A stretch of 6,685 nucleotides of DNA from a bacterium. GTDB lineage: Bacteria > Thermosulfidibacterota > Thermosulfidibacteria > Thermosulfidibacterales > JALWSI01. Positions within the stretch are counted from its first letter, which is position 1. Every line of letters begins with the position of its first letter. Below are positions 1 through 6,685 of this stretch, in pieces. The notes below the pieces were generated by a model. It was not told the origin of the DNA and ran no database searches. It saw nothing but the letters and a program-made list of their open reading frames with translations. The position numbers and the translations under genes are program-made. The stretch covers positions 1 to 6,685 of the forward strand of contig JALWSI010000104.1 in NCBI GenBank assembly GCA_027080315.1, in the 5' to 3' direction.

Positions 1-348
1 AAAGTAAGTAAAACAAGAAAGATCTATGGTGAATTTCCTGTTGATTGCAGATTATCCCTCAGGAAGTATCACATATTAGAGGATTATTCCAATAAAATTG
101 ATTGGTGGAAGATAAGAAACGGAGCCTTTTTTTCTCCAAGGGCCTCAGGGCTCTTTATAGAAAGTAGGATTGAGGATATTGAGCTTTTGGCCATAGGCCC
201 TGAGGGGGGATTTACCCCTGAAGAGGAAGAGACCATGCTTAATTGGGGTTGGAGGTGTTACAATTTGGGTCCCAGGGTGTTGAGGACAGACACGGCCATG
301 GTTGCCGTAGCTGCCATTACAGCCCAGAGGATGTGGCGTGAAAGATAG
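1..348 (+). CDS. rsmE: 16S rRNA (uracil-1498-N3)-methyltransferase RsmE, C-terminal half
   Basis: The frame is open from the first base of the window to the TAG at 346-348, giving 115 residues of a protein usually about 240 long. The 5' end lies outside the window. RsmE methylates N3 of U1498 in 16S rRNA using S-adenosylmethionine and belongs to the SPOUT class with a C-terminal trefoil knot. The knot signatures are visible: [13 protein letters not shown] (from base 193) and [12 protein letters not shown] (from base 265), the two most conserved RsmE blocks, which form the SAM site. The FSPRAS segment about 25 residues upstream also fits the family. The stop overlaps the start of nth by 11 bp, so the two genes are probably one transcript with coupled translation. 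The identification rests on motifs and is firm for this half; the N-terminal PUA-like domain cannot be seen. Confidence 0.93.
326..330 (+). promoter_or_regulatory. Ribosome binding site for nth
   Basis: AGAGG lies 7 nt upstream of the GTG at 338, inside the end of rsmE. It supports the GTG as the nth start and translation coupled to rsmE termination. The ATG at 331 is in the rsmE frame and is not a competing start. Confidence 0.6.
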
Positions 349-994
349 CGACATACACGAGGTTATTGAGAGGCTTAGAGGGGTTTACTCCCTTTGGAAA
401 GAGCCAATTGTGACAAAGCTGAGCCGCAAGCGTAGGGATCCTTTCAAGGTTCTAATATCCTGTATCTTGAGCCTTAGGACTCAGGACAAGACCACTGCTG
501 AGGCCACTAGGAGGCTTATGGAGAAAGCCTCTACCCCTTATGAGATGCTGAAGCTTACTGAGGAGGAGATAAGCAGACTTATCTATCCCGTTGGATTTTA
601 TAACACTAAGGCTAAGAACATCAAGGAGATATGCAAAGCTCTGGTTGAGAGGTATGACGGCGAGGTTCCCTCTGACATGAATGAGCTGTTGAAACTTAAG
701 GGGGTGGGCAGAAAGACTACTAACCTCGTACTGACCAAAGGATTTGGGTTACCGGGTATCTGCGTTGATACCCACGTTCACCGCATCACCAACCGCTGGG
801 GGTATGTTGACACAAAGACCCCTAAAGAGACCGAGATGGTACTGCGTAAGAAGCTGCCAAAGGAGTATTGGATAGAGATAAACGATCTATTAGTGGCCTT
901 TGGTCAGAATCTTTGTCGTCCTATCTCTCCTTTCTGTAGCAGGTGTCCGGTAAAGGAGTTTTGTGAACAGCGAGGGGTTACAAATACGAGATGA
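338..994 (+). CDS. nth: Endonuclease III (bifunctional DNA glycosylase / AP lyase)
   Basis: A 218-residue protein of normal length for endonuclease III, the base-excision-repair enzyme that removes oxidised pyrimidines and cleaves the abasic strand. The helix-hairpin-helix reads [13 protein letters not shown] (about 120-132), with K126 as the catalytic Schiff-base lysine. VDTHVHR follows, with D144 as the catalytic aspartate. The C-terminus carries the 4Fe-4S cluster ligands C193, C200, C203 and C209 with the classic C-X6-C-X2-C-X5-C spacing. Residues 44-50 read LSLRTQD where E. coli Nth has LSAQATD, so the damage-pocket glutamine is replaced by arginine; similar SLRT-type versions are, as I recall, common in other Nth branches. 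The start is GTG, chosen because of the AGAGG 7 nt upstream. The gene overlaps rsmE by 11 bp, and its last 17 bp overlap the end of the convergent histidine kinase gene. Confidence 0.95.
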
Positions 995-1793
995 GTCTTT
1001 GATAAATACCTGTTTTCACGGCAAGAACAATTGTGAACCTCTCTTTGCTCTCTTTTATCTTCAACTTTATTTTGTATCTTCTGCACAGCTTCTTCACTAT
1101 ATTTAATCCCATTCCTGTTCCCTTTGAGCTTTCTTCTTTTATATCGTTTCTCACGGCCAATATAATCTGGTTATTCAGTCTTGATAATCGTATATGTATG
1201 AGTTTATCTGAATATCTTATGGCGTTATCTAATAGAAGATAAATGATTATACTAAGCTCTTCTTGTATGGCAAATACTGTGCACTTTCTATCTGTTATAT
1301 TCACTATTATTCTTTTGCTCTCTTTATACTCATTGCTATTGTCTGTAGCTTCTTTTATTATGGTCCTTATATCTAATCTTTCTTCCTCTTTCATGGTGCC
1401 TGACTTGAAGCCCTCTATTATCTTAATAAGTTGATCCATATCTTCCATTATTATTGAATACTCTTCTAATAGCCTATCAACTGCTTTATCTTTATATCTA
1501 TCTTGTAGAATATTTAAGTTAATGATCTGAGAAGACAAAAAGTTGCCAAGTTTATGAGTGAATGATAACATCAAGATTTCTAAAAACTCCCTGTTCTTCT
1601 CCCTGACCCGTATGTGTGTTATCAATAGTCTGTAAAATATTATAGTTGCTGAGAGTAGTAGCACAGTTTCCCATACTATCATAATGGTTATGAATCTCCA
1701 TATCTTTTCATCTGCTATAAGTGTAGAGTCGTATATTGACGACACAAATGCGTGTATAGCAACTATGTTAAATGCAAATATAAGGACAAACAT
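978..1793 (-). CDS. Membrane sensor histidine kinase, small, without sensor domain
   Basis: The frame from the ATG at 1793 encodes 271 residues. Hydrophobic segments at about 1-18 and 34-58 would be two membrane helices joined by a loop of only about 15 residues, so there is no extracytoplasmic sensor domain and no visible HAMP. About 20 residues after helix 2 comes the dimerisation helix with the likely phospho-acceptor H80 ([10 protein letters not shown]). The ATP-binding domain shows an N box ([11 protein letters not shown]190) and a G box ([11 protein letters not shown], 225-235). A standard DxGxG box is absent; VRNDIKEES stands in its place. The partner is almost certainly the OmpR-type regulator encoded just upstream. 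The ATG has no Shine-Dalgarno sequence. The same frame continues upstream to a strong one, so the true start may be ATT at 1841 or CTG at 1835, adding 16 or 14 residues including basic ones (KLRFEHR) before helix 1. The coding region is AT-rich: 19 G+C of 60 in bases 1261-1320. The signal sensed is unknown. Confidence 0.88.
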
Positions 1794-1831
1794 TACAAAT
1801 ATAAAGCTAAATAGAGATCTGTGTTCAAACC

Positions 1832-2479
1832 TCAGTTTAATAAGTATCCCCTCCCTTTCATTGTCTTTATGCTCTCCTTAGGAAGGATTTTTCTTAACTC
1901 TTTTATGTAGAATCTTATTATCTCATCACCTACAATAGAATCTCCCCATACGTATGAGAGTATCTGCTCCTTTGTAACCAATCTCCTTCTGTTTTTAATT
2001 AAGAGATACAGGAGATCCCATGACTTCTTTGAAAGATTAACTGGCTCTCCTGAAGCCGTATATACGGTTCTTGTTTTTAGATCAACTCTCACATCTCCTA
2101 TTGATATTAAACTTCCTCTCTGTGCTCTGTTTGAGAGTGCCTTTAGTCTCAATAGCAGTTCCTTTGGTTCAAATGGTTTGATTAAATAGTCGTCTGCTCC
2201 TCGCTCAAAACAGACCTCTTTATCATGCAGTTCTCTCTTTGCTGTTAGTATTAGAACAGGGGTTTCTATCCCAGATCTTCTGATCTCTTGTAGAATATCT
2301 TCTCCTTTTCTGCGCTTAAGAATAAGATCAAGCACTATAACATCAAAAGAAAAGCTGTTCAGTATCTCTTTTACTTCTGCTTCGTCACTTAGCCAGGTGA
2401 CTGAGACTCCATGACTGTATAGATACTCTTTAAGGCTCTCTCCTAAAAGAATGTCGTCCTCTACAATAAGGACCTTCAT
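1832..2479 (-). CDS. OmpR/PhoB-family response regulator
   Basis: A 215-residue two-domain regulator of standard length. The receiver domain (about 1-118) starts with MKVLIVEDD, giving the acidic pocket D8 and D9. The phospho-acceptor is D51 in VIVLDL, the switch threonine is T79 in LILTA, and K101 sits in the LIKPFEP motif. The C-terminal winged-helix DNA-binding domain (about 122-215) carries the family signature: L.KKSWDLLYLL, then LVTKEQIL..VWG, then a recognition helix region around IRFYIKELRK, and an ending in MKGRGYLLN. It should be phosphorylated by the kinase encoded immediately downstream and bind DNA as a dimer. Its targets cannot be read from the sequence. The ATG is well placed, with AAGGAAGGG (2485-2493) 5 nt upstream. 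It starts 21 bp after metF and ends at a TGA that overlaps the probable start region of the kinase gene, so it is inside the same operon. Confidence 0.95.
   Translation of the reverse strand: MKVLIVEDDILLGESLKEYLYSHGVSVTWLSDEAEVKEILNSFSFDVIVLDLILKRRKGEDILQEIRRSGIETPVLILTAKRELHDKEVCFERGADDYLIKPFEPKELLLRLKALSNRAQRGSLISIGDVRVDLKTRTVYTASGEPVNLSKKSWDLLYLLIKNRRRLVTKEQILSYVWGDSIVGDEIIRFYIKELRKILPKESIKTMKGRGYLLN
1848..1855 (-). promoter_or_regulatory. Strong ribosome binding site for the histidine kinase
   Basis: On the minus strand this reads GGGAGGGG, within the last codons of the response regulator gene. It lies 6 nt before an in-frame ATT (1839-1841), 12 nt before an in-frame CTG (1833-1835) that overlaps the regulator stop as CTGA, and 54 nt before the first ATG of the kinase. 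No in-frame ATG, GTG or TTG occurs between the kinase ATG and the upstream TAA at 1878-1880. The site therefore suggests a non-AUG, translationally coupled start. Confidence 0.5.
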
Positions 2480-3453: not shown

Positions 3454-6400
3454 TCACTTCTCCTCCACCACCGCCAAAAGATCTCCCTCTGATACTGTGT
3501 CTCCCACCTGAACCAGCAGCTCTGAGACAACCCCTGAGATCCGTGAGATGATGTTGGTCTCCATCTTCATGGCCTCTACCACAACCACGGGATCGCCTTT
3601 TTTCACCTTGTCTCCCTCTTTTGCCACAACCTGGATCACCTTGCCTGGCAGGGTGGAGCCCACATGGGAGGGGTTCTTGGGATCGGCTTTAGGCCTTGCT
3701 ACCACCTCAGCGGCAACAGAGCGGTCTGGCACCCTGATCTCTCTTGGCTGCCCATTGAGCTCAAAGTGGATCACCCTGGTGCCGTCTTCAAGAAGCTCAC
3801 CAATGGCGTTGAGCTTAACTATCAGGGTCTTGCCCTCTTCAATCTCTATGCTCTCTTCTTGTCCAACCTCCATGCCGTAGAAGAAGAGGGGGGTCTTCAT
3901 AACAGATACGTCTCCGTACTGCTCCTGGAACTCCACAAAGTCTTTGAATACCTTGGGATAGAGGACATAGGATAGGATCTGCTGCTGGGTGGGAGTGGTG
4001 CCCAGAATCTCTTTAAGCTCCTCTTTCACCTTTTTGAAGTCAACGGGTTCCAGTAGCTCTCCAGGCCGGCACTCAATGGGCTTTTCGCCTTTAAGAACAA
4101 CCTTTCTGAGCTTCTCGTTAAATCCTCCCGGGGGTTGGCCAATAAGGCCTTTGAAGAAGCCCACCACAGAGTCGGGAAAGGCCAGCTCTTTGCCCTTTTC
4201 ATAGAGGTCCTTCTCGCTCAGGTTGTTGCGGAGCATGAATAACGCCAGGTCTCCAACCACCTTGGATGAGGGTGTCACCTTGATAATGTCTCCTAAGATG
4301 CGGTTCACCTCGGCGTACTTCTCCTTCACCTCCTGCCACCTGTCTCCCAGGCCCATCTGGATCACCTGCGGCTTCAGGTTGCTGTACTGTCCACCCGGAA
4401 TCTCGTGGAAATAAACCTCCCCAGTTGAGCCTTTGAGCCCGCTTTCAAAGGGGGCGTAAAACTCCCTAACAGCCTCCCAGTAGTTGGCAAGGGGCAATAG
4501 GTTCTCAAGCTTTAAGGGGGGCTCGCGGTCGGTACCGTGAAGGGCTGCCACAACCGCCTCCATACTGGGCTGGGCCGTTAGTCCTGAAAGGGAGGATATC
4601 GCCAGATCAACCACATCCACCCCAGCCTCAGAGGCCCTTAAGCAAGAGGCCACCCCGTTACCCGCGGTGTCGTGGGTGTGGTAGTGTATTGGCATATCTA
4701 CCGCGTCCTTCAAAGCGCTTACTAAGATCTTTGCTGCCTGAGGCTTGCATAGACCCGCCATGTCCTTGATGCCCAGAATGTGGACCCCCATGGCTTCAAT
4801 CTCTTTGGCGAGAGAAACATAGTAGTTCAGGTCGTACTTCGTGCGTTTGGGGTCGCAGATGTCTCCGGTGTAGCAGATGGCCACCTCTACCAGTTTGCCG
4901 GTCTTTAGCGCCTCGTCAACCGCCACCTCCATGCCCTTAACCCAGTTGAAGCAGTCAAATATTCTGAAGAGGTCTATACCGGCGCTGGCAGACTCCCTCA
5001 CAAAAGAGCGCACCACGTTGTCAGGATAGTTGGTGTAGCCTACGGCGTTGGAGCCTCTAAGGAGCATCTGAAAGAGGATGTTTGGTATTCTCTTCTTCAG
5101 CTCCGCTATTCGCTGCCAGGGGTCTTCGTGTAGAAAGCGCATGGCCACGTCAAAGGTGGCACCTCCCCACATCTCTATTGAGAAGAGCTCAGAGGCTAAC
5201 CTGGCAGTGGCGTCGGCAATGCGCACCATGTCGTAGGTGCGTACCCGGGTGGTGAGGTTTGACTGGTGCGCGTCTCTAAAGGAGGTGTCGGTCACCAGAA
5301 GCCTCTTCTCCTTTTTCAGCCACTCCACCACTCCCTTGGGTCCCTTCTTTCTCAACAGGTCCGCTGAACCTTTTGGCACCTTATCCTTAACGCTGAAGGT
5401 GGGAACTGGAGGATCTTGCACCACAATCTGTGGCTTTGCAGTGATGCCGGGGAACCCATTGAGGGTTACGTCTCCCAGGTATCTTAGGGTCTTGTTGCCT
5501 CTGTCAAGTCTGGGTTTAAAATGGAAGAGCTCCTTTGTGGTGTCAACAAAGGTGGTGTTGCACTCCCCTGCGAGAAAGGTTGGATGGTTAAGCACATTCA
5601 GCAAGAAGGGGATGTTGGTCTTTATACCTCTAATTCTGAACTCCCTTAGGGCTCTTTCCATCTTAGAGACCGCATCCTCAAAGGTGAGGGCCCATGTGGT
5701 CACCTTCACCAGCATAGGGTCGTAGTGGGGAGATATCCTCGAGCCAATAAAGCCGTCTCCTGCATCAAGCCTTACTCCGTATCCCGCCGCGGTGCGGTAG
5801 GCCACAATGCGTCCGGTGTCTGGCATAAAGTTGTTTTCAGGATCCTCTGTTGTGACCCGGCACTGAACGGCAAACCCGCTCTTTTTTACAGACTCCTGAC
5901 CCTTTATCCCCACCTGGTGGAGGGAGAGGCCTGCGGCTATCTTCAACTGGGCCTGAACCAGATCCCTTCCGGTTATCTGCTCTGTGACGGTGTGCTCCAC
6001 CTGGATTCGGGGGTTCATCTCAATGAAGTAGTATCTTCCCTCCTTATCCACCAGAAACTCCACTGTGCCGGCATTGTAGTAACCCACTCCCCGGGCTATG
6101 CGCAGGGCGGCCTCGTAAAGCCTCTCTCTCAAGAAGGGGTCAATTCCCGAAACTGCAGGGGCCATCTCTATGAGTTTCTGATGGCGGCGCTGTATTGAGC
6201 AGTCTCTCTCAAAAAGATGCACCACGTTGCCGTATTTGTCTCCCAGAACCTGTACCTCAAGGTGTTTGGGACCCTCCAAAAATCTTTCCAAAAAGACCCT
6301 TTTGTCACCAAAGGCCTTGAGTGCCTCTGACTGGGCCCGCTCAAGATTCTCAATGAGCTCTTTCTCGTTGTAAACGATGCGCATTCCCCTGCCACCGCCC

Positions 6401-6579
6401 CCTGAGGCGGCCTTTATGATGATGGGAAAACCCGCCTTTTTCGCGAAGGCTATGGCGTCTTTGGGGTCTTCAATGGGGCTATCGGTGCCTGGAATTACCG
6501 GGATCTCAAGGCTTTTAGCCAATTCCCTTGCCTTCACCTTGTCGCCCACAAGCTCAAGCACTTCTGGGGAGGGGCCCAC
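3454..6579 (-). CDS. pyc: Pyruvate carboxylase, single chain, 5' end removed by IS insertion
   Basis: The remaining frame has 1041 codons of an enzyme usually near 1150 residues. Pyruvate carboxylase uses ATP, bicarbonate and biotin to turn pyruvate into oxaloacetate. The biotin carboxylase part (about 1-345) has the ATP-grasp loop KAASGGGGRGM (56-66) and the active-site block EMNPRIQVEHTVTE (187-200). The carboxyltransferase domain has DTSFRDAHQS (431-440, metal ligand D436), IEMWGGATFD (468-477), KDMAGL with K605 as the expected carbamylated lysine, HTHDTAG with metal ligands H634 and H636, and SGLTAQPS. The biotinyl domain ends the protein with EAMKMET, K1005 being the biotin site. The N-lobe of biotin carboxylase (about 115 residues, ending in the GYGFLSEN region) is missing. 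The frame picks up at FVGPSPEVLEL, and upstream of it the codons no longer match and reach a stop at 6643-6645. The GTG at 6579 has no ribosome binding site and is the conserved valine of that motif. The product is probably non-functional, in effect a pseudogene. Confidence 0.93.
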   Translation of the reverse strand: MGPSPEVLELVGDKVKARELAKSLEIPVIPGTDSPIEDPKDAIAFAKKAGFPIIIKAASGGGGRGMRIVYNEKELIENLERAQSEALKAFGDKRVFLERFLEGPKHLEVQVLGDKYGNVVHLFERDCSIQRRHQKLIEMAPAVSGIDPFLRERLYEAALRIARGVGYYNAGTVEFLVDKEGRYYFIEMNPRIQVEHTVTEQITGRDLVQAQLKIAAGLSLHQVGIKGQESVKKSGFAVQCRVTTEDPENNFMPDTGRIVAYRTAAGYGVRLDAGDGFIGSRISPHYDPMLVKVTTWALTFEDAVSKMERALREFRIRGIKTNIPFLLNVLNHPTFLAGECNTTFVDTTKELFHFKPRLDRGNKTLRYLGDVTLNGFPGITAKPQIVVQDPPVPTFSVKDKVPKGSADLLRKKGPKGVVEWLKKEKRLLVTDTSFRDAHQSNLTTRVRTYDMVRIADATARLASELFSIEMWGGATFDVAMRFLHEDPWQRIAELKKRIPNILFQMLLRGSNAVGYTNYPDNVVRSFVRESASAGIDLFRIFDCFNWVKGMEVAVDEALKTGKLVEVAICYTGDICDPKRTKYDLNYYVSLAKEIEAMGVHILGIKDMAGLCKPQAAKILVSALKDAVDMPIHYHTHDTAGNGVASCLRASEAGVDVVDLAISSLSGLTAQPSMEAVVAALHGTDREPPLKLENLLPLANYWEAVREFYAPFESGLKGSTGEVYFHEIPGGQYSNLKPQVIQMGLGDRWQEVKEKYAEVNRILGDIIKVTPSSKVVGDLALFMLRNNLSEKDLYEKGKELAFPDSVVGFFKGLIGQPPGGFNEKLRKVVLKGEKPIECRPGELLEPVDFKKVKEELKEILGTTPTQQQILSYVLYPKVFKDFVEFQEQYGDVSVMKTPLFFYGMEVGQEESIEIEEGKTLIVKLNAIGELLEDGTRVIHFELNGQPREIRVPDRSVAAEVVARPKADPKNPSHVGSTLPGKVIQVVAKEGDKVKKGDPVVVVEAMKMETNIISRISGVVSELLVQVGDTVSEGDLLAVVEEK

Positions 6580-6584
6580 AAAGG

Positions 6585-6611
6585 TGTATAGTGGACCCCA
6601 AAAATGAGACA
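6585..6611 (+). repeat. Probable left terminal inverted repeat of the IS
   Basis: The segment begins TGTATAGTGGACCCC and ends in AAAATGAGACA. IS3-family ends commonly start with TG and carry a C-rich run a dozen or so bases in. Only one end is present, so the repeat character is inferred. TGGACCCC at 6592 is an alternative outer edge. Confidence 0.45.
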
Positions 6612-6630
6612 GTATGCTAAGGTAGAGCCA

Positions 6631-6638
6631 AAGGAGGG
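6631..6638 (+). promoter_or_regulatory. Ribosome binding site for the IS transposase OrfA
   Basis: AAGGAGGG lies 6 nt upstream of the ATG at 6645, a near-perfect Shine-Dalgarno match and spacing. It supports this ATG as a real start even though only 13 complete codons are visible. Confidence 0.75.
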
Positions 6639-6644
6639 TCTGCT

Positions 6645-6685
6645 ATGGGTCGTAGGAGATATTCGGCGAAGTTCAAGGCCACAGT
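6645..6685 (+). CDS. IS3-family transposase OrfA, N-terminal fragment
   Basis: The frame starts at ATG 6645 and runs off the window after 13 complete codons (MGRRRYSAKFKAT, with the next codon beginning GT). The pattern of basic residues followed by RYSAKFKA is the typical opening of OrfA proteins of IS3-family elements, whose helix-turn-helix (HTH_Tnp_1 type) follows directly. In such elements OrfA and a downstream OrfB with the DDE domain are joined by ribosomal frameshifting to make the active transposase; that part is not visible here. The gene points away from pyc. The identification is based on a short sequence, backed by the strong ribosome binding site and the broken pyc next to it. 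Confidence 0.75.
   Translation, partial: MGRRRYSAKFKAT

Follow-up and report, generated by a model that had tools for sequence, protein, structure and literature searches.

Members of the IS3 family, such as IS2, IS3, IS150, and IS911, have two reading frames, OrfA and OrfB, at a -1 offset, an A-rich slippery site, a DDE (rve) transposase, and imperfect inverted repeats that end in CA on the right. In members that form circles, the target duplication is 2-4 bp (PMC3299598). Adjacent deletions and recombination between copies without duplications have been described for IS150, and these two processes are documented causes of missing duplications (PMC11708052). The element described here has the two offset frames, the transposase, and the imperfect repeats, together with a candidate slippery site and, in one of its copies, a 3-bp target duplication, and its left tip is TA, as for IS2 (PMC3299598). 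It is a lineage-specific member of the family; the OrfB relatives found in the order-mates align over partial stretches with no more than 55% identity. The gene next to it, pyc, encodes a single-chain bacterial pyruvate carboxylase (PRK12999, TIGR01235; structures 4qsl, 3bg5, and 5vyw). The domain order of the remnant is that of these enzymes but, unlike them, it is without the first ~100 residues, which we attribute to the insertion. Its identity to pyruvate carboxylases of Desulfuromonadota is ~58%. There is nothing unusual in finding an IS3-family element inserted into a metabolic gene, and a literature search returned no title or abstract evidently concerned with an IS-interrupted pyruvate carboxylase.

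The window, meaning the whole stretch of DNA that was analyzed (6,685 bp), is the entire contig C104, and the junction between pyc and the IS lies at a contig end. The draft genome consists of 1.84 Mb in 253 contigs and is 94% complete and 2.8% contaminated. It appears to represent a small, isolated lineage. The nearest genomes available for comparison were eight order-mates from two other families, and the next nearest share only the domain. The contig begins within a gene for an RsmE-type 16S rRNA methyltransferase, of which the 3′ part is present (1-348, plus strand), with a poor match over the first ~60 visible residues. It also carries a two-component pair, an OmpR-type response regulator and a histidine kinase (978-2479, minus strand). 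Only the ATPase domain of this kinase was matched in Pfam, and the HisKA phosphoacceptor domain was not found.

The best explanation of the junction, to which we assign a probability of about 85%, is transposition of an active IS3-family element into pyc ~100 codons past its start; no other pyc was found in the draft genome. The features on both sides of the junction are listed in Table 1.

Table 1. Features of the pyc remnant and the IS3-family element in the window
Feature	Position	Strand	Basis
pyc (pyruvate carboxylase), 3′ part	3454..6586	-	NCBIfam PRK12999/TIGR01235, Pfam domains, alignment with order-mates
Expected 3-bp target-site duplication, GTG (predicted)	6584..6586		By analogy with the TTT duplication of the C245/C231 copy
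IS3-family insertion sequence, left end (first 99 of 1,270 bp, cut by contig end)	6587..6685	+	100% identical to complete C137 copy
Left imperfect inverted repeat	6587..6613	+	17/27 bases match right end; TATAGTGGACCCCAAAAATGAGACAGT vs TGAGACGGACCCCATAGGCAAGACAGT, compared by eye
Shine-Dalgarno-like AAGGAGGG of OrfA	6631..6638	+	Read directly
OrfA start (MGRRRYSAKFKAT...), ATG at 6645	6645..6685	+	94 aa in complete copy; Pfam HTH_Tnp_1

The pyc frame is intact to base 6586 and runs for more than 1,040 codons without a stop or frameshift. Its single chain combines the ATP-grasp and C-terminal regions of biotin carboxylase with an HMGL-like carboxyltransferase, PYC_OADA, and the biotinyl/biotin carrier domain (Pfam). 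Biotin_carb_N (PF00289) was not matched by Pfam in the window's pyc protein, leaving a biotin carboxylase without its N-terminal subdomain, and the two equivalog models (1147 and 1143 positions) are matched from positions 106 and 102, respectively, through to their ends. The first native residue remaining is Thr (ACC, 6583-6585), with one further base to 6586; this Thr aligns with Val or Ile in relatives. The preliminary description had followed the resemblance to pyc up to FVGPSPE and no further, and our alignments agree, with the limit at (T)FVGPSPE. Read across the junction on the minus strand, the frame gives ...HFWGPLY and then TFVGPSPEVLELVGDK..., and the stop already noted at 6643-6645 is an in-frame TAG.

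Four order-mates (G003, G007, G002, and G008) have a pyc that is 68-72% identical to the window gene over the best stretch, and in all of them the missing ~100 N-terminal residues are present in a single open frame that begins near (M)NKVMAANRGEIAIRIFRAC. Counted from MNKVMAANR of the order-mates, the missing part is ~100 residues, or 107 with the mechanically called TTG start of G003, instead of the ~115 proposed earlier. The corresponding 5′ end, which the preliminary description had proposed to look for, was not found in the bin using PF00289 or a relative's 116 N-terminal residues with E up to 10, and it might lie on an unbinned contig. The three Biotin_carb_N matches in the bin are other biotin carboxylases (49-58% identity). 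Two contigs were considered as possible pyc fragments: C18 was rejected because it carries another biotin carboxylase running to the contig end, and C135 gave only a weak biotin-carboxylase match (35%).

The homology break in pyc coincides with the tip of the IS, exact to the base, and the element is oriented opposite to pyc. When bases 6587-6685 were compared with the complete C137 element, 99 of 99 were identical (E = 4e-45), which is too close for chance, and the identity to C245 was also 100%. The element start was placed at T6587 because the preceding base differs in every identical copy, with GGTG before the tip in the window, AGAA in C137, and GTTT in C245. The TG at 6585-6586, previously taken as the element end, is pyc flank, and the earlier coordinates were shifted by two bases. 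The earlier placement of the AAGGAGGG site and the OrfA ATG on the plus strand was correct. The element tips are TATAGTGGACCCC... on the left and ...GGGGTCCGTCTCA on the right.

A complete copy of the element is found in C137 (L009:2118-3387, minus strand). It is 1,270 bp long and encodes an OrfA of 94 aa with HTH_Tnp_1 (PF01527) and an OrfB of 277 aa with rve (PF00665), HTH_21 (PF13276), and rve_3 (PF13683). OrfB scores 297.8 bits on NF033516 transpos_IS3, for which the cut-off is 160. The OrfA end has an A8G run, and the -1 frame of OrfB stays open through it, following CTTAAAAAAAAG, making this a candidate frameshift site. The OrfB gene and the right inverted repeat, both sought since the initial reading, are present in this copy. 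A complete IS3 copy that begins with these 99 bases and carries both OrfA and OrfB, and not a flank devoid of transposase, together with the full-length gene in one frame in relatives, bears out the claim that pyc is cut by an IS3-type element. No target duplication flanks the C137 copy, which is preceded by AGAA and followed by GGTA. On its 5.5-kb contig it lies amid toxin-antitoxin-like genes (L009:162-3913), namely nucleotidyltransferase/HEPN genes, MazE/MazF-like genes, and HicA with a HicB-like partner.

A second copy is represented by two contig ends (L008 C245:1-108 and flank; L108 C231:1-108 and flank). The C245 flank ends ...ATGGAGTTT at the left tip, and the C231 flank starts TTTAGG at the right tip, giving a 3-bp duplication, TTT, that falls in the 2-4 bp range of circle-forming family members. 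When the flanks were joined with one TTT, a single frame of ~150 codons was obtained, and a second ORF is thus split by the same element. The duplication and the restored frame therefore indicate that the element inserts with a 3-bp duplication and has been active in the source genome. Six right ends were found in the bin, and their next bases are TTT (C231), AAA (C129), ATT (C166), GGT (C137), AAC (C93, diverged), and AAA (C33, diverged). None of the six runs into GTG or pyc, and the right junction of the pyc copy is not in the assembly. C231 was considered as the partner of C104 and rejected since it pairs with C245. The contigs of the other copies extend 105-113 bases into the element, and C104 extends 99 bases.

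Another possible explanation, which we consider unlikely but worth holding tentatively, is that the 5′ end of pyc was lost, with or after the insertion, by recombination between copies or by an adjacent deletion, and that C104 is now connected via the element to some unrelated region, for example C129 or C166. The absence of the 5′ end from a bin of 94% completeness is consistent with this, as are the right ends of C129 and C166, which have no matching left end. The missing target duplication of the C137 copy is a sign of such events, and adjacent deletions are known for IS150 (PMC11708052). However, a short unbinned contig explains the missing 5′ end equally well in a bin this fragmented, and no such junction was observed in the assembly. 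The insertion could also be present in only part of the population, with an intact pyc in the rest. IS insertions are often polymorphic and the genome is a draft bin, but we think this rather improbable, given that an uninterrupted pyc was not found in the assembly. Furthermore, if the assembler was of the de Bruijn type, it would be expected to end a contig where two paths diverge, but C104 runs on into the element, as do the contigs of the other copies. We infer that the assembled, interrupted version is the dominant one.

It is very unlikely that the element was misjoined to an intact pyc during assembly. Although the junction is at a contig end and in a repeat, the join is at the exact tip of the IS, and there is no sequence in common between the pyc side and the flanks of the other copies, so that the assembler had no overlap to mislead it. 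A natural split gene with the biotin carboxylase N-lobe encoded elsewhere, which the preliminary description had set against its own proposal, has a negligible chance of being correct. The pyc of the order-mates is one continuous open frame, and no separate N-lobe ORF was found in the bin, where each of the three N-lobe matches is part of another biotin carboxylase.

Under the favored explanation, the IS3-family element would have inserted into pyc ~100 codons from its start in the opposite orientation, and C104 would end inside the element because further copies of it occur in the genome. What is left of the frame would lack the biotin carboxylase N-terminal subdomain, the native promoter, and the start, and the enzyme would be expected to be inactive. 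Because the N-terminal subdomain belongs to the folded core of biotin carboxylase, inactivation of pyc by the insertion is very likely. The event looks recent because the 99-base element end is identical to other copies and the pyc frame is free of stops and frameshifts.

This locus calls for caution in annotation and metabolic modeling. As anticipated in the preliminary description, a mechanical ORF caller puts the pyc start at GTG 6579, which is misleading since the N-lobe is missing. The remnant nevertheless scores 1595 bits on equivalog NF009554 (cut-off, 965), and a pathway tool would list the cell as capable of pyruvate carboxylation.

The loss of pyc would leave the cell without the standard route from pyruvate to oxaloacetate. 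The earlier suggestion that this anaplerotic route is knocked out, with oxaloacetate coming from other routes, is supported only in part. A second pyruvate carboxylase was not found in the source genome. PEP carboxylase, of either the bacterial (PF00311) or archaeal type (PF14010), was not found in the source genome or the eight order-mates, and neither was GTP-PEPCK. A malic enzyme domain is present in all nine of these genomes. Five of the eight order-mates have an ATP-PEPCK, with a match that covers the whole model in four and part of it in one. Instead of this canonical enzyme, the source genome has just a divergent member of the PEPCK family (L147:105-1601; C190:240-1556, minus strand). 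This protein scores 176 bits in Pfam and 459 bits on the NCBIfam subfamily NF006821 (cut-off, 369), and it is far below the cut-off of the canonical pckA model. One of the two adjacent lysines in its GE-KK motif is replaced by Met in an alignment to Thermus PEPCK and, thus, its activity is uncertain.

In the other four order-mates (G001, G004, G005, and G006), pyc was not detected, the matches being biotin carboxylases and carriers only, and completeness is 90% or more in three of these bins. Loss of pyc is therefore unremarkable in this lineage, and the order is probably able to live without it. That the lineage has been losing pyc repeatedly, with oxaloacetate supplied by the atypical PEPCK-family enzyme of C190 or by a carboxylating malic enzyme, is a doubtful extension of this idea. 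C166 also carries a cluster of a carboxyltransferase, a biotin carboxylase, and a methylmalonyl-CoA mutase-like gene, the last recognized by eye.
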